From NCBI RefSeq assembly GCF_000349325.1, contig NC_020504.1, forward strand, positions 2,514,053 to 2,578,052: DNA of 64,000 nt. The letters run 5' to 3'. Position 1 is the first letter of the stretch. Each line of letters begins with the position of its first letter. Shown in pieces: positions 11,915 to 17,193 of the stretch. A model generated the notes under the pieces. The model did no database searches, was not told where the DNA came from, and worked only from the letters and a program-made list of their open reading frames with translations. The position numbers were made by a program, and so were the translations under genes. The stretch is from Streptomyces davaonensis JCM 4913 (GTDB lineage Bacteria > Actinomycetota > Actinomycetes > Streptomycetales > Streptomycetaceae).

Positions 11915-13111
11915 TCAGCGCGTGGGCAGTTCGGCCTCGATGAGGTCGGCCGCGCGGCGCGTGCCGCCCTCCTCGGCCATCTGCGCCTGGATCTCCTTCA
12001 GGCGCCGGGCCACCTCGGGGTCCTCCACGAGGGCGAGCGCGGTCTCCCGCAGCGCCTCGGCGGTGACCTCCTCGGTCGGCAACTGCCGGGCGACACCGAG
12101 CGCCTGGAGCATGTCCGCGTTCCCGAACTGGTCCACGGCCTGCGGTACGGCGATCATCGGGGTGGCGGTGGCCATGCCCTCCTGGCTGCCGCCGGCGCCG
12201 GCGTGGGTGACGAACAGGTCGGCCTGCTTCAGTACGGCCAACTGCGGCACCCACGACGCCACTTCGACGTTCGCCGGTACGTCTCCCAGCTCGGCCGGGT
12301 CGACATGGCGGCCGATCTGGAGTACCAGGTGCCAGCCCGGCAGCTCCCCGAAGGCCTTGACGCACTCCCGGTAGAAGCCGGGCTGCTTGGTGAAGGCCGA
12401 GCCGAGCGAGACGAGGACGACCTTCTCGGCCCCGGCGGGCCGCTGCCACTCCCCCTCGGCGGTGCGGTCGCCCTGGCAGGCGCCGACGAACGAGTACACG
12501 CTCTCGTCGACCCGGTCGGCGTTGGGCTGAAGCGCCTTCGGGATCAGCACCAGAGAGCGGTCGGGGCGGCCAGCGAACCGGTCCGGGTCGAGGGTGACGC
12601 CGTTCCCCTCCAGCCAGGCGCCGAAGCGGGCGTAGTAGGCCCGCCCGCGCTCGGTCTTCCTCGGCTCCGCCCACATCGGCTCGGCGATCTCCTTCTCGTA
12701 GCCCTCCCAGGCGACGAGGTTCGGCGACAGCGAGATACAGGGCACGCCCCAGCGGTGGGCGAGGACCCGGGCCGGGTAGGAGGTGATGTCGTGCAGGACG
12801 AGGTCCGGTTCGTCGCCCTCGTAGGCCGCAATGAGCTGAGGCAGCGCCTGGATCGCGTCGGCCAGGAACGGCTCGACGTTGTCCAGCAGGGTGCTGCCCC
12901 AGGCCTCCGGGTCGGCGTCCGGTCCGGGCAGGGTGGAGTTCCACGGCTTCGGCTCGGCGCCGGCCTCGGCGACCTTGTCGGCGAACGCGGGCGGGATCGC
13001 GTAGGTGACCCGGTGCCCGCGCGCGACGAGCTCACGGATCACTTCGAGGCTCGGGTTCACGTGGCCGTGAGCGGCGATGGAGAACATGGCGATGTGTGCG
13101 GGTGAGGTCAT
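11915..13111 (-). CDS. mgt: Macrolide glycosyltransferase (MGT family)
   Basis: 398 residues from the ATG at 13111. It is a GT1/GT-B enzyme: N-terminal [18 protein letters not shown], and a C-terminal UDP-sugar site with [19 protein letters not shown], then GGSQEGM and [15 protein letters not shown]. This matches Mgt/OleD-type enzymes that inactivate macrolides by adding glucose to the desosamine 2'-hydroxyl. The gene lies 10 bases after the erm stop, has no clear ribosome site of its own, and is therefore likely expressed by translational coupling. The erm(lrm)-mgt order is the one known from Streptomyces lividans, where the pair confers inducible macrolide-lincosamide resistance. The cytosolic location fits drug modification inside the cell. 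Confidence 0.88.
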
Positions 13112-13121
13112 GGGGACAAGG

Positions 13122-13925
13122 CTAAACGAGACGAGACGTCTCGTACAACTCATTCAGTGATCGATGCAGTCGCAGCCACCGCTCCGGCGGCACCTCCCCC
13201 ACCAGGACCCGCCGGTCCAGCCCCGCCGCGCGGAACGCCGCGTCCACCCGGCGCCCTGGATGGGCCCCGCGCAGCGAGGCGTGCAGGGAGCCGCCCACCC
13301 CTGAGAAGCCCAGCTCGACAAGGTGCCGCCAGCTCGTCCGCTCGGCGGGTCCGAGCAGCGGGGTGGCGCGCCGCTCGATGCGCAGGATCCCGGCGTCCAC
13401 CCGGGGCGCGGGCCGGAACCGGGTCCGGGCGACGCGTCCGACCAGCCGCCACTCGTGGCTCGGCCAGCTCCGCACGGTCAGCAGGGTCCAGCTCCCGTAG
13501 TCGCCGGTGCGTCTGCGCGCGTACTCCAGCTGGGTGATCAGGGTGGCGTCGGTGAGGGCTGGGGCGCGCAGACACCAGTCGACGATGGCGGCGGTCCGTG
13601 AGAAGGGGACGTTCCCGGCGACCGCGAAGGGGGTGCGCGGGGGCCGGGCGGCGAGGAAGTCGCCGCCGATGACGTGCACTTGGGGTGTCGCGGAGAAGCG
13701 GGTGCGCAGTCCCGGAAGGAGCCGGGGGTCGATCTCGTAGGCGTGCAGCTCGTGGCAGCGGGGGGCGAGTACGGCGGTCAACGCGCCTTTTCCGGCGCCC
13801 ACTTCGAGCAACAGTCGGGGGCGGTGGCCGGGCGGGACGGCGATGCGGGCGAAGCGGTCGGCGGTGGCGCGGTCGGTGAGGAAGTTCTGCGAGAGCGCGC
13901 GGGAAACACGCGTGGGGCGGGCCAT
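13122..13925 (-). CDS. lrm: 23S rRNA (adenine-N6)-methyltransferase, Erm family (lrm-like)
   Basis: 267 residues from the ATG at 13925 with an AAGGA ribosome site nine bases upstream. Erm/KsgA motifs are present: SQNFLTD near residue 12, the S-adenosylmethionine site [12 protein letters not shown] (about 39-50), YEIDPRL, GGDFLA and the catalytic NVPFS (motif IV, N-[IVL]-P-[FY]). Enzymes of this family methylate A2058 of 23S rRNA and so block macrolide and lincosamide binding. Linkage to mgt suggests the lrm (Erm(O)) type, which mainly monomethylates. A leader peptide and competing hairpins upstream point to drug-induced translation. The last codons contain a perfect 14-bp palindrome (13131-13144), probably incidental. 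Confidence 0.9.
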
Positions 13926-13934
13926 GGCCTGCGG

Positions 13935-14105
13935 TCCTTGTCTTCCGGGAGAAGGGAGATGGGCAGCCGAAGGCCCTGACCGGAAGACAGAGAAAAGGAA
14001 TGCGGGGGCGGTCGCTGGATCAGCGGGTGAGGCTCCCCGGGCCGGTCAGGGCTCCGAGGCCGCGGCGCATCCGGATGGAGTGCGTGCAGCCCCGGCCGAG
14101 ACCGG
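13935..14105 (-). promoter_or_regulatory. Erm translational attenuator (competing RNA hairpins)
   Basis: Four pairing segments can be read in the transcript. Segment 1 (14105-14100, CCGGTC) lies just after the leader codon Ser10 and pairs with GACCGG in segment 2. Segment 2 (14052-14042, GCCCTGACCGG) pairs perfectly over 11 bp with segment 3 (13983-13973). Segment 3 also offers TGTCTTCCGG (13989-13980) for a perfect 10-bp pairing with segment 4 (13948-13939), which abuts the AAGGA ribosome site of erm (13939-13935). Without drug, 1:2 plus 3:4 would hide the site. A ribosome stalled early in the leader would cover segment 1, allow 2:3 and free segment 4. The pairings are seen; the mechanism is inferred by analogy with ermC. 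Confidence 0.75.
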
Positions 14106-14133
14106 AGATGAAGATCGCGTTGAAGGCTCCCAC
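14020..14133 (-). CDS. Macrolide-sensing leader peptide of the erm operon
   Basis: A 37-codon frame from GTG 14133 to TGA 14020, upstream of erm on the same strand. The first ten residues, MGAFNAIFIS, closely resemble the ErmC leader arrest sequence MGIFSIFVIS, with Ile9-Ser10 at the same positions. Residues 17-24, THSIRMRR, resemble the ErmD leader (THSMRLRF) and contain an Arg-x-Arg arrest motif. Both types are known to stall drug-bound ribosomes. A good promoter places the transcript start at or next to the GTG, so the message is probably leaderless here. The peptide itself is not expected to act after release; its role is to position stalled ribosomes for the attenuator. Confidence 0.78.
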   Translation of the reverse strand: MGAFNAIFISGLGRGCTHSIRMRRGLGALTGPGSLTR

Positions 14134-14140
14134 GGACGGC

Positions 14141-14170
14141 ACGCTAGGCGGGCGGGGTCCGGGCCGACAA
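14141..14170 (-). promoter_or_regulatory. Promoter of the erm-mgt operon
   Basis: On the minus strand TTGTCG (14170-14165) and TAGCGT (14146-14141) are separated by 18 bases, a good match to a vegetative Streptomyces promoter. The leader GTG lies eight bases after the -10 box, where transcription should begin, which suggests a leaderless start. The promoter sits in the short gap after the ABC binding-protein gene. Confidence 0.65.
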
Positions 14171-14180
14171 CCGAATTACG

Positions 14181-15452
14181 TCAGCGCTGATAGCGGGCGA
14201 GCACCAGGTTCCCGTCCTCCTCCAGCCGCTCGCGCAGCTCACCGAGGTCGATCGCGCCGCTGTAGTACTCCTGGAGTGCGGGGGTGGCCACCTTGTCCTT
14301 CCACTCCGGGTAGCCCCGTACGGCCTGGGCGGGTGCCGGGTGCAGGTGGTCGGCGAGGGCCGTGCCGGTGGCCCAGTCGTGCTTCTCGGTGTGCAGGGCC
14401 GGGTCCTTCAGGGCCGCGGTGCCGGTGGGCAGCATCCAGTCGCCGAGGGCCAGCCGGACCATGTTCTCGGGCCGGAGCAGGAAGTCGACGAACTCGGCCG
14501 CCTCCCGCTGGTGCGGGCTGTCCTCGGCGATGGAGAGGGTCTGCGGGCTGACGCCCTGGGTGAGCCCGTCCGCGCCCGCCGGGGCGGGCAGCACCTGCCA
14601 GTCGAAGCCCTCCGGGGCCTGCTGCACGATCTGCTGGCGGTAGGAGAAGCCGAGCGGAACCATCGCGTACCGGCCGCCGAAGAAGCCGGGCAGGGTGTCC
14701 GAACCGCCGCTGCCGAGCGTCGTGGGTGAGGCGCTGCGGTCGGTGTTGACCTGGTCGTGGACGGTCCGCGGCAACACCTCGTCGGCGGCCTCGAAGCGGA
14801 CGGTGACCTTTCCGTCGGCGCCGCGGTGGAACAACTGCCCGCCGGTGGACAGCGAGAGGTTGAGGGTGGCGGAGACGGGGTCCTTCAGCGGCCAGGCGAC
14901 GCCGTACTTCCCGCCCCCGCTCAGCTCCTCGCTGATCTGTTGGAACTCCGGCCAGCTCCACGGCCGTTCGGGTGTGGGGATCCGTACGCCGGACTCCATC
15001 AGCCAGGTCGCGTTGGCGACGATGACCCGGGGTTCCTGGAGGAAGGGCACGCCGTAGACGCCCTCCCCGAAGGTCGCCGTCTGCCAACTGCGCTGCGGAA
15101 TATCGGACTTGAGCCGCTCGGGCAGCAGGTCGGTCAGGTCGGCGAGATAGCCGCCGTAGGCGAAGTCCGCGAGGTCGTCGGAGGCGTCGTGGATGATGTC
15201 CGGCGCCTCGCCGCCCTCGAAGGCGGTCAGCAGCTGGTCGTGGACGCTGTCCCAACTGCCCTGGACATACTCGACCTTGACGTCCGGATGACTGGCGTTC
15301 CACTCCTTGACCAGCTCCTGGTTGACCGCGACGGACTCCTCCTGCCAGGCGAGGGACTGGAAGCGCAGGGTCACCGGGCCGTCCGCGGATTCGCCGCCGC
15401 TCGTGCAGCCCGCGAGGAGAAGAAGGAGGACGACGAGCCAGCGGGCGCGCAT
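14181..15452 (-). CDS. Sugar ABC transporter substrate-binding lipoprotein
   Basis: 423 residues. The N-terminus LVVLLLLLAGC is a lipoprotein signal with a LAGC lipobox, so the mature protein should be tethered outside the membrane by a lipidated cysteine. The body is a cluster-B (family 1) solute-binding protein: VTLRFQSLAWQEE, WNASHPDVKVEYVQGSWD and APDIIHDASDDLADF are typical of oligosaccharide binders. The ATG overlaps the stop of the permease gene upstream (TGATG at 15450-15454). The binding protein is the last gene of a permease-permease-binding protein operon, an unusual order since it is more often first. The sugar bound cannot be read from the sequence. Confidence 0.88.
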   Translation of the reverse strand: MRARWLVVLLLLLAGCTSGGESADGPVTLRFQSLAWQEESVAVNQELVKEWNASHPDVKVEYVQGSWDSVHDQLLTAFEGGEAPDIIHDASDDLADFAYGGYLADLTDLLPERLKSDIPQRSWQTATFGEGVYGVPFLQEPRVIVANATWLMESGVRIPTPERPWSWPEFQQISEELSGGGKYGVAWPLKDPVSATLNLSLSTGGQLFHRGADGKVTVRFEAADEVLPRTVHDQVNTDRSASPTTLGSGGSDTLPGFFGGRYAMVPLGFSYRQQIVQQAPEGFDWQVLPAPAGADGLTQGVSPQTLSIAEDSPHQREAAEFVDFLLRPENMVRLALGDWMLPTGTAALKDPALHTEKHDWATGTALADHLHPAPAQAVRGYPEWKDKVATPALQEYYSGAIDLGELRERLEEDGNLVLARYQR

Positions 15453-16285
15453 CAGTTCTTCACCGCCCCGGCAAGCATGCCACCGGTGATCCGGCGCTGG
15501 ATGACCGCGAAGATCAGCAGCGAGGGCAGGGTCGCGAGGAAGGCCGCCGCGGCCAGCGGGCCGAGGTCGGCGACGCCCTCGGCGCCGATGAAGTGGGTGA
15601 GGATCACCGGAAGGGTCTGTTTCTCGGGGGTCTTCAGCAGGACCAGCGCGAAGAAGAACTCGTTCCAGGCGGTGACGAAGGCGAACAGGGCGGTCGCCGT
15701 GATCCCCGGCGCGAGCAGCGGCGCGACGACCGAGACGAGGGTGCGCAGCCGCCCGGCCCCGTCGACGGCGGCCGCCTCCTCCAACTCGGTCGGCACGGCC
15801 CGGACGTACCCCACGAGCATCCACAGCGCGAAGGGCAGCGCCCAGACGACGTAGACGAGGATCAGCCCGAACAGGGAGTTGATCAGGCGGAGTTCCTTCA
15901 GCACCAGGAACAGCGGGATGATCACCAGGACCAGCGGGAAGGCCTGGCTGACCACGACCCAGCCGGTCGCGGCGCGGGCGAGCGGGGTGCGGTGCCGGGC
16001 GATGACATAGGCCATGGGGGTCGCGATCAGTACGGCGATCAGCGCGGCGGAGAACGCGGCGATCAGGGAGTTCGACGCGGCTTCCAGGAGGGGCTGCTCG
16101 TCGAAGGCCTGGCGGAAGTTGTCGAGGGTGGGGTGCTCGGGGATCCAGGTGGGGTGCAGGCTGCCGAGTTCGCGGGGCGGCTTGAACGCGGTGGAGATCA
16201 GCCAGAGGAAGGGGAAGGCGAGGAACAGGAGATACGCGAGGAGTGCCGCGTACTGGCCGACCCGGGCCGTGGTGCTCGTCCTCAT
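15452..16285 (-). CDS. Sugar ABC transporter permease (MalG type)
   Basis: 277 residues with six predicted transmembrane helices. The cytoplasmic EAA loop that contacts the ATPase reads ELEEAAAVDGAG followed by R and TLVSVVAPLLAPG. The N-terminal helix (YLLFLAFPFLWLISTAFK) and the periplasmic TLDNFRQAF segment are typical of the second permease of carbohydrate uptake-1 importers. Its ATG overlaps the upstream permease stop by four bases. No ATPase gene is linked, which fits the Streptomyces habit of sharing the ATPase MsiK among sugar importers. Confidence 0.9.
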   Translation of the reverse strand: MRTSTTARVGQYAALLAYLLFLAFPFLWLISTAFKPPRELGSLHPTWIPEHPTLDNFRQAFDEQPLLEAASNSLIAAFSAALIAVLIATPMAYVIARHRTPLARAATGWVVVSQAFPLVLVIIPLFLVLKELRLINSLFGLILVYVVWALPFALWMLVGYVRAVPTELEEAAAVDGAGRLRTLVSVVAPLLAPGITATALFAFVTAWNEFFFALVLLKTPEKQTLPVILTHFIGAEGVADLGPLAAAAFLATLPSLLIFAVIQRRITGGMLAGAVKN

Positions 16286-17193
16286 GACTCGTCTCCTCCT
16301 CGCAGTCGGCCCACCAGGAACAGGGCCAGCAGGATCGAGATCAGGGCGACCATCACACAGCCCATCGCCGCCGCGTAGCCGAACTGGCCGTAGCGGAAGG
16401 CCTCTTCGTAGGCGAAGAGCATCGGCAGCCGGGTGCGGCCGCCGGGGCCGCCGCCGGTGAGGACGTAGACCAGCGCGAACGAGTTGAAGTTCCAGATGAA
16501 GTTGAGTGCGGTGATGGCCAGGGCGACCGGGCGCAGGGCGGGCCAAGTGACGGTCCGGAAGCGGCGCCAGGCGCCCGCGCCGTCCATGGCGGCGGCCTCG
16601 TGCAGCTCGCGCGGGGTGTTCTGGAGGCCGGCGAGCAGGGCGACGGTGGTGGTCGGCATCCCGGCCCAGACGCCGACGACGATGACGGCGGGCAGGGCGG
16701 TGGCCAGGCCGCTGAGCCAGTCGCGGCCCTCGCCGAGGCCCAGGTCGCGGAGCGTCTCGTTGAGGATGCCGGCGTCCGGGTTGTAGACCAGCCGCCACAT
16801 CACCCCGACCACGACCTCCGGCATGGCCCACGGGACGATCGCGAGGGCGCGGGCCAGCCAGCGCAGCCGTAGGTCCTGGTTGAGGAGCAGGGCCAGGCCG
16901 AGCGCGAGCAGGAACTGCGGGACGGTGACGCCGACGGCCCAGACCAGGCCGATCCGGAACGACTCCCAGAACAGGGTGTCGTGCAGCAGATCCCGGAAGT
17001 TGAGACCGCCGATCCACTGGGTGGGCTGGGTGCGGCCGGACTGGGAGTCGGTGAAGGCCAGCAGGATCCCGTACAGCAGCGGTCCGACGCTCAGCAGCAG
17101 GATCGGGATCAGCGCGGGCAGTACGAGGAACCAGGCCCCGCCCGCGCGAGGCCCGCCGGGCGCCGAGCGCCGTGTCGCGGTCACCAAGGCCAC
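16282..17193 (-). CDS. Sugar ABC transporter permease (MalF type)
   Basis: 303 residues from a GTG start, first gene of the importer operon. Six helices are predicted after a basic N-terminal tail, with the EAA loop ELHEAAAMDGAGAWRRF near residue 205. The pair with the downstream permease would form the heterodimeric channel through which the bound sugar passes. About 160 bases separate it from the divergent phosphotransferase gene; they must carry both promoters, but I cannot point to a clear operator. Confidence 0.88.
   Translation of the reverse strand: MALVTATRRSAPGGPRAGGAWFLVLPALIPILLLSVGPLLYGILLAFTDSQSGRTQPTQWIGGLNFRDLLHDTLFWESFRIGLVWAVGVTVPQFLLALGLALLLNQDLRLRWLARALAIVPWAMPEVVVGVMWRLVYNPDAGILNETLRDLGLGEGRDWLSGLATALPAVIVVGVWAGMPTTTVALLAGLQNTPRELHEAAAMDGAGAWRRFRTVTWPALRPVALAITALNFIWNFNSFALVYVLTGGGPGGRTRLPMLFAYEEAFRYGQFGYAAAMGCVMVALISILLALFLVGRLRGGDES

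Follow-up and report, generated by a model that had tools for sequence, protein, structure and literature searches.

Among described erm attenuators, one of the closest to the leader considered here is that of ermD, whose leader peptide ErmDL carries a Ser-x-Arg-X-Arg arrest motif and stalls with the X codon in the ribosomal P site and the second Arg codon in the A site, Ser4 and Met5 also being important for the response to erythromycin (PMC8298421). ErmCL (MGIFSIFVI; PMC5915450), which follows the same multi-segment attenuator logic, induces ermC when the ribosome stalls with its P site at Ile9 (PMC13148051). The arrest motif of ErmAL1 is given as IAVV (PMC12698558), and ermA differs from the locus described here in having two separate leader ORFs (PMC8274638). 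Outside the erm family, the leader of tlrB/yxjB in Bacillus subtilis (MIIQFIRYR) likewise uses an RXR sequence, at which tylosin stalls the ribosome while its P site holds the middle residue, ahead of a resistance methyltransferase gene; the peptide, however, has only 9 residues, the control element is a transcription terminator and the enzyme is another methyltransferase, RlmAII (PMC6851288). In toiL of Escherichia coli a single uORF senses drugs through stalls at different codons, but the gene is unrelated, at least five antibiotic classes are sensed, and the accessible part of the source describes no tandem macrolide motifs (PMC12121999). Erm attenuators, including those of the Streptomyces genes ermSF and ermSV, ErmDL-type arrests and inducible Streptomyces erm genes are all known already. 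Work ascribed to Kamimiya and Weisblum (1988, 1997) reportedly placed ermSV and ermSF/tlrA of Streptomyces under leader-peptide attenuation, and ermSV is said to be inducible by 16-membered macrolides.

The leader analysed here lies in a 64,000-nucleotide stretch of DNA from Streptomyces davaonensis JCM 4913, referred to below as the window. Whereas ErmDL stalls at codon 7, the corresponding motif of this leader is at codons 21–23, with an Ala-Ile motif upstream, and the leader is predicted to be leaderless and to follow a WblC-type promoter. Its first residues are like those of ErmCL, but the arrest-site residues 7–9 are not conserved among its relatives. With ErmAL1, in what we take to be the numbering of that peptide, it shares Ala6 followed by a branched aliphatic residue at codon 7, but codons 8–9 are variable in its Erm(O) clade. 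We conclude that the locus very probably encodes a translational attenuator that macrolides induce mainly through an ErmDL-type arrest at R21-X22-R23, a judgement that covers the Arg-X-Arg core only. A tentative extension is that one leader holds two macrolide-arrest motifs, an ErmA-like Ala-Ile at codons 6–8 and an ErmD-like Arg-X-Arg at codons 21–23, placed at the two windows of the RNA switch with a poorly inducing stretch between them, and that the underlying frame (leaderless, WblC-type promoter, Arg-X-Arg) recurs in actinobacterial erm genes as short Arg-X-Arg and long two-motif classes. No leader with two such motifs was found in the accessible literature on lrm, ErmO, ermSV and leaderless WhiB7 erm leaders, key older work on ermSV lying outside this search.

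The erm locus, its leader and its promoter

The gene order on the minus strand is 37-codon leader, erm, mgt (Table 1). The erm product exceeds the cut-off of the wider NCBIfam ErmE/H/O/R model (erm_SHROVE, 405.4 bits against 320) and stays under that of the ErmO model (435.4 bits against 450), and the mgt product matches NCBIfam NF033129 with 803 bits (cut-off 700). As in other translational attenuators of erm genes, a short leader ORF lies directly upstream of erm, and from the position of the promoter we infer that both are carried on one transcript. Sugar ABC transporter-like ORFs are found directly upstream (14181–17193), their binding-protein matches falling under curated cut-offs. An ORF ending in ARYQR-stop upstream of the leader was seen again, by eye, in many relatives, so that the erm locus looks syntenic.

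For comparison, loci were collected from a genome-contig scan (69) and from 392 genomes of the window's genus (90 Erm-matching). The upstream regions of 125 loci were checked; the S2 anchor of the attenuator is present in 84 and absent in 41, and there are 70 distinct leaders. Of these, 62, the window included, make up the codon alignment and are called close leaders below; the other eight are L080 (frameshift), L116, L118 and L122 (other frame), L033, L114 and L115 (distant) and L020 (one codon shorter). One genome, Streptomyces sp. F001, has two erm matches (L024 and L031), whose upstream 330 bases, including the leader, look identical by eye.

The leader peptide VGAFNAIFISGLGRGCTHSIRMRRGLGALTGPGSLTR runs from GTG 14133 to TGA 14022–14020, starts with MGAFNAIFIS and carries THSIRMRR at codons 17–24, as the preliminary description of this DNA had read it. 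A program-made ORF list puts the start at 14142, 9 nt earlier and within the −10 element; GTG 14133 is the better start. Seven nucleotides separate the end of the −10 element from this GTG, and the same spacing recurs in 60 of the 62 close leaders (one has 6 nt, and L113 gave no match), so that the transcript is expected to start at or next to the start codon. The spacer between −35 and −10 is 18 nt in 52 of the 62, 17 in 8 and 16 in 1, with one unmatched, and none of the 62 has GGAG, GAGG or AGGA just ahead of the leader start. The leader mRNA is accordingly predicted, from sequence, to be leaderless and to begin at or beside GTG 14133; the earlier claim that the promoter places the transcript start there holds as such a prediction. 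WblC-controlled genes carry GAAAWY 3 nt upstream of −35, and lrm (SCO6089) of S. coelicolor is a WblC target (PMC7157823). The box of the window, GTAATT, has one mismatch to this consensus; GWAAWY-N3-TTG is present in 50 of the 62 close leaders, in 36 of these 50 as GAAAWY.

Table 1. Features of the leader, attenuator and resistance genes in the window
Feature	Position	Strand	Basis or remark
mgt, macrolide-inactivating glycosyltransferase, start put at ATG 13111	11915..13111	-	NF033129
erm, 23S rRNA A2058 methyltransferase, ErmE/H/O/R family, Erm(O)-like	13122..13925	-	NCBIfam
erm Shine-Dalgarno sequence AAGGA	13935..13939	-	9 nt ahead of ATG 13925, read from sequence
Segment 4 (S4) CGGAAGAC	13940..13947	-	directly ahead of AAGGA 13939-13935
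Segment 3: S3 CCGGTCAGGGC (13983-13973) and stem arm GTCTTCCG (13988-13981)	13973..13988	-	
Leader ORF, 37 codons and stop, GTG start, predicted leaderless	14020..14133	-	sequence, relatives
Segment 2 (S2) GCCCTGACCGG	14042..14052	-	exact reverse complement of S3
Inner partner GCCTCGG	14054..14060	-	alternative: pairs just 3' of S2, local hairpin hiding S2
R21-M22-R23, +X+ arrest motif	14065..14073	-	Arg 62/62 at both positions
Segment 1 inner arm CCGGGGC	14089..14095	-	pairs with 14060-14054; single pairs kept in 58-62/62
Segment 1 (S1) CCGGTC, codons 10-12	14100..14105	-	outer S1:S2 helix in 62/62 close leaders
N-terminal conserved motif N5-A6-I7	14113..14121	-	N 59, A 60, I 59 of 62
Promoter: -35 TTGTCG (14170-14165), -10 TAGCGT (14146-14141), 18 nt spacer	14141..14170	-	sequence
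WblC/WhiB7-type box GTAATT, 3 nt upstream of -35	14174..14179	-	sequence

The Arg-X-Arg motif and the predicted RNA switch

Arg21 and Arg23 are invariant in the 62 close leaders and are encoded by synonymously varied codons (CGG 47, AGG 10, CGC 3, CGA 1 and CGT 1 for Arg21; CGC 32, CGT 26, CGA 2 and CGG 2 for Arg23), with pS values of 0.34 and 0.55 respectively. The residue between them is free (Met 47, Val 4, Lys 4, Arg 2, Leu 2, Thr 2, Pro 1). Since the two arginines are fixed while their codons and the residue between them vary, Arg-X-Arg is, on the evidence of this alignment, under peptide-level selection, with the +X+ arrangement of an ErmDL-type leader. The pN/pS ratio is 0.16 for codons 21–24 against 2.0 for codons 33–36, values that can be compared only among themselves because third positions are mostly G or C and synonymous rates are therefore low everywhere. 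A serine stands two residues ahead of R21 in 49 of the 62 leaders. In S1 and S2 (codons 10–15 and 28–30), near-invariance extends to all three codon positions, which indicates a constraint on the RNA.

Natural variants suggest where selection on the peptide stops. Frameshifts in close homologues had been named as evidence against the leader, and L080 does carry one, but only 3' of RMRR; the frame shifts right after this sequence and ends at a TGA within S2. The leaders of L030 and of L116, L118 and L122 also end at a TGA within S2, their frame past Arg-X-Arg being unlike that of the close clade, and their RxR is kept about 20 nt from the CTGACC core, against 21 in the close clade (by eye). Selection on the peptide therefore seems to end at Arg-X-Arg. 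In L006, Asn-Ala-Ile is lost and Arg-X-Arg is kept.

The four mutually exclusive pairing segments proposed in the preliminary description, the last of them beside the erm ribosome site, are found at positions refined by a base or a few. S2 and S3 are complementary over 11 bases, and all 11 pairs are kept in 61 of 61 parsed relatives; GTCTTCCG pairs with CGGAAGAC over 8 bases, single pairs being kept in 53–59 of 59 parsed relatives (S3 is unparsed in L104, and S4 in L104, L011 and L028). The S1:S2 and S2:S3 pairings, seen in 62/62 and 61/61 relatives, are more than expected by chance. Inside the close clade, however, the three stems are indistinguishable from simple conservation of the sequence. 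Covariation, which had been suggested as a check, is essentially nil there (one compensatory cell), as expected of an S2 that must pair with two partners, and as proof of the stems it was set aside as uninformative within this clade; a compensatory change, TGACC/GGTCA to TGGCC/GGCCA, is seen only between clades. No Rfam family reaches its gathering score anywhere in the window. Pair counts and folding together support mutually exclusive 1:2, 2:3 and 3:4 helices, the last beside the erm site, as in a translational erm attenuator.

The effect of a stalled ribosome was modelled by folding the RNA downstream of it for each P-site codon, with the first free base at P-site +17, a footprint that agrees with inverse toeprinting (PMC6238534), and by comparing P(2:3) with P(3:4). 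The scan and its repeat parsed 61 of the 62 close leaders (L104 absent). A late window is predicted with codon 22 in the P site, where 2:3 wins in 49 of the 61 loci and 12 do not flip; from codon 25 on 2:3 wins in none, and at codons 1–4 in at most 9. An early window is predicted at codons 6 to 8, 2:3 winning in 38/61 at codon 6 and in 41/61 at codons 7 and 8. Between the two windows 2:3 wins in 18–32 of the loci, and codon 9 falls in this valley (21/61). When the scan was repeated at 30 °C with a +16 footprint, the corresponding counts were 47/61 at codon 22, 40–41 at codons 7–8, 27 at codon 9 and 1/61 at codon 25. In the window itself P(2:3) stands at 0.96 for codons 6 and 7, falls to 0.72 at codon 8 and 0.25 at codon 9, and reaches 0.78 at codon 22; an extra rise at codons 18–19 (0.86 and 0.68) is absent from the average relative. 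Both maxima also stand out in a one-base scan, in which the ribosome at the late maximum covers the GGCCCCGG arm but not S2, and at the early maximum covers S1 while the S1 inner arm still holds the GGCCCCGG arm.

By folding, a stall with X22 in the P site would thus flip the switch, as an ErmDL-type arrest should, and the ErmD-like motif recognised in the preliminary description is borne out both by its codon-level selection and by its placement at the late window. A stall near codon 9, which had been expected to free the erm ribosome site, is predicted to do so in only the minority of leaders counted above, and not in the window. Accessibility of the AAGGA sequence (61 loci, L019 missing) moves only modestly: the mean unpaired probability is 0.25 in the whole mRNA and rises to 0.35 at codon 22, where 20% of the loci exceed 0.5; in the window it is 0.50 at codon 22 against 0.16 at codons 1–5. 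This readout was dropped as weak, and helix probabilities were chosen after its result had been seen.

The mechanism we envisage begins with a WblC-type promoter giving a leaderless mRNA that starts with the leader. In the absence of drug the ribosome would reach the leader stop, helix 3:4 would form beside AAGGA and erm would be off. When a macrolide or ketolide occupies the tunnel, we infer that the ribosome halts once X22 has reached the P site and Arg23 the A site. The downstream edge of the halted ribosome would then cover the arm that would otherwise hide S2, leaving S2 free for S3, and the 2:3 pairing would release S4 and the erm ribosome site. The Ala-Ile at codons 6–7 may act in either of two ways, by causing an early stall of some drug-bound ribosomes at codons 6–8 or by allowing passage past the drug to Arg-X-Arg.

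Leaders at other actinobacterial erm loci

A class-wide search covered 394 genomes, 96 of them with a match. Pooled with further stretches and with the loci collected above, its results made up a set of 177 erm loci from actinobacteria, which fall into 69 clusters; the 177 include duplicates of the same gene and exclude the distant or non-actinobacterial L043–L069 and the fragmentary or odd L087, L142, L143 and L156, with L157 unmatched. Leaders were sought by promoter only (an AT-rich WblC-type box, TTG and TANNNT) and were found in 117 of the 177 loci and 34 of the 69 clusters; the 60 loci with no promoter match, among them L030, L033, L038, L116 and L119–L126, stand outside the count. Every promoter-defined leader contains R/K-X-R/K (34/34 clusters, which are not fully independent, 10 being of Erm(O) type), against 20.5 ± 2.6 of 34 clusters in a length-matched control (at most 27 in any of 200 draws); in DNA as GC-rich as this, RxR often arises by chance, being present in some 60% of the control ORFs of matched length. 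One survey of leaders upstream of erm reports no universal conservation pattern among uORFs (PMC11264731). Here, the promoter-defined actinobacterial leaders share one peptide motif (117/117) and one start spacing, with the start codon exactly 7 nt behind −10 in 113/117, and most of the long leaders have a second motif in common.

Two classes can be distinguished by the position of X. In short leaders it lies at codons 9–18, as in MSPTCHAPLFFVRIRRGPVPGR and MCGISCGIAVMRLRRA; in long leaders it lies at codon 21 or later, mostly with Ala-Ile within codons 3–10, as in MAAFQAIVEGPQAWPAAALARLRSALPDR and MASFHAIVNRVQSWSASAHDLVVRPRSGSLDR. Strict Ala-Ile at codons 3–10 marks 18 of the 23 long clusters against 1 of the 11 short ones (Fisher p = 2e-4), including 9 of the 13 long clusters that are not of Erm(O) type, and its frequency in control ORFs is 0.6% (n = 725). 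With a looser motif (A then I or V, ALI, TLI, SI) the counts become 20/23 and 5/11. A short-leader class comprising L036, L175, L186, L197, L205, L144 and L150 has X at codons 9–14 and lacks Ala-Ile, which is also absent from the clades of L116 and L119–L126.

Folding of distant loci gives different answers for the two switch windows. Of 32 loci, 28 were scored (L134, L136, L178 and L192 were dropped because the wrong frame had been assigned); in 19 of them P(2:3) reaches 0.5 or more at X or the preceding codon, and in 2 it does so at the codon that follows X. Nine fail at both X and the preceding codon (L036, L126, L127, L129, L131, L135, L160, L173 and L193), and in L127, L129 and L160 the assigned helix never forms in folding. 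Among 17 long Ala-Ile-like leaders scored by eye (L033, L114, L127, L129, L131, L132, L135, L138, L038, L039, L160, L169, L170, L173, L179, L188 and L193), P(2:3) reaches 0.5 (rounded) or more at X in 9 leaders but in only 5 at the residue that follows Ile, with several dipping there. These predictions speak against a general early trigger, and an early switch window as a general rule was rejected, no consistent one being seen outside the Erm(O) clade.

A promoter-free, blind helix test places an open-frame RxR at offset 18 of the best helix with a frequency of 0.13 by clusters (0.40 by loci), against 0.00–0.05 at other offsets. When all strong helices are taken, the cluster-weighted frequency at offsets 10–18 is 0.07–0.23, only modestly above a background of about 0.09 that reaches 0.24 at single offsets; in the same set AI is in frame in 18 of 56 clusters, against 4/56 and 1/56 in the other two frames.

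Readings of the N-terminal Ala-Ile motif

A second conserved element does exist in the leader, as supposed when two sensors, one ErmC-like and one ErmD-like, were first proposed for it; it is, however, N5-A6-I7, with its predicted switch window at codons 6–8, and not an ErmC-like motif. Within residues 1–10 and 17–24, where codon-level conservation had been looked for, N5-A6-I7 and R21/R23 are kept, but among the first 15 codons of the 62 leaders none vary more than 8 and 9. The motif is closer to that of ErmAL1. In the short leader of L152, MCAIAVVIRTRRF, transcribed from a WblC-type leaderless promoter, the ErmAL1 motif IAVV stands directly ahead of Arg-Thr-Arg; exact IAVV is confined to the L152 cluster among the 34, the close leaders having A6 in 60/62, I7 in 59/62 and a free codon 8.

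An early sensor and a bypass element are about equally likely roles for Ala-Ile, and both remain tentative. In the second case only Arg-X-Arg would stall the ribosome, and the Ala-Ile N-terminus would let the chain slip past the macrolide, as would be needed when over 20 codons separate Arg-X-Arg from the start. The concentration of strict Ala-Ile in long leaders fits this, as does its position in other clades, mostly off the switch window (P(2:3) reaches 0.5 at the residue following Ile in 5 of the 17 long leaders scored by eye), and N-terminal residues are known to decide macrolide bypass, as for H-NS (PMC5915450, citing Kannan et al.). The motif is nevertheless unlike the H-NS N-terminus used in PMC5915450, the looser motif weakens the contrast between long and short leaders, codons 6–8 of the Erm(O) clade coincide with a predicted switch window (41/61 at codon 7), and the short leader of L152 carries an arrest motif of ErmAL1. 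Arrest at codon 22 on a leaderless mRNA and the N-terminal motif as drug sensor or bypass can now be tested, as can the way in which WblC-dependent transcription and translational control combine in soil bacteria that natively bear erm genes.

It is rather unlikely that the N-terminus is conserved for leaderless initiation or as part of an RNA element and not for the peptide. The Ala codon of Ala-Ile (14118–14116 in the window) is GCG in 91 of 91 promoter-defined loci, distant clades included; at Ala3 of the close clade, by contrast, all four codons occur. Much of this uniformity, however, is ordinary codon-pair preference: in 369 long ORFs from the window and the loci, GCG makes up 379 of the 535 Ala codons that precede Ile (71%), against 38% of all Ala codons. 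The GCG in Ala-Ile of the leaders is more uniform than the 71% of ordinary genes. A pure nucleotide explanation is further weakened in that GCGAT, wherever it occurs within the first 45 nt, is in frame, leaders that have ALI or TLI instead do without GCGAT, short leaders on the same promoter lack Ala-Ile in 10 of 11 clusters, and in the predicted fold of the window only the GAT of GCGAT pairs, with three neighbouring bases.

That the leader is a two-sensor device with an ErmCL-type arrest at Ile9-Ser10 is highly improbable. The MGAFNAIFIS of the window does resemble the MGIFSIFVIS of ErmCL, and a ribosome at that site would cover S1; but the IFVI of ErmCL is not conserved at codons 6–9 across the 62 leaders, where codons 8 and 9 are hypervariable, codon 9 lies in the switch valley (21/61, and 0.25 in the window), and Phe7 of ErmCL, whose change to Ala relieves arrest (PMC5915450), has no conserved counterpart. 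The ErmCL identity of the N-terminus, and with it the ErmC-like arrest motif first seen in this leader, was rejected on the first two of these grounds. Purely transcriptional regulation by WblC, with the leader as a by-product, is the least credible reading, since the WblC-type promoters directly ahead of 117 leaders, which agree with it, were themselves the means by which those leaders were found, and codon-level selection on R21/R23 and the conserved pairing segments speak against it.
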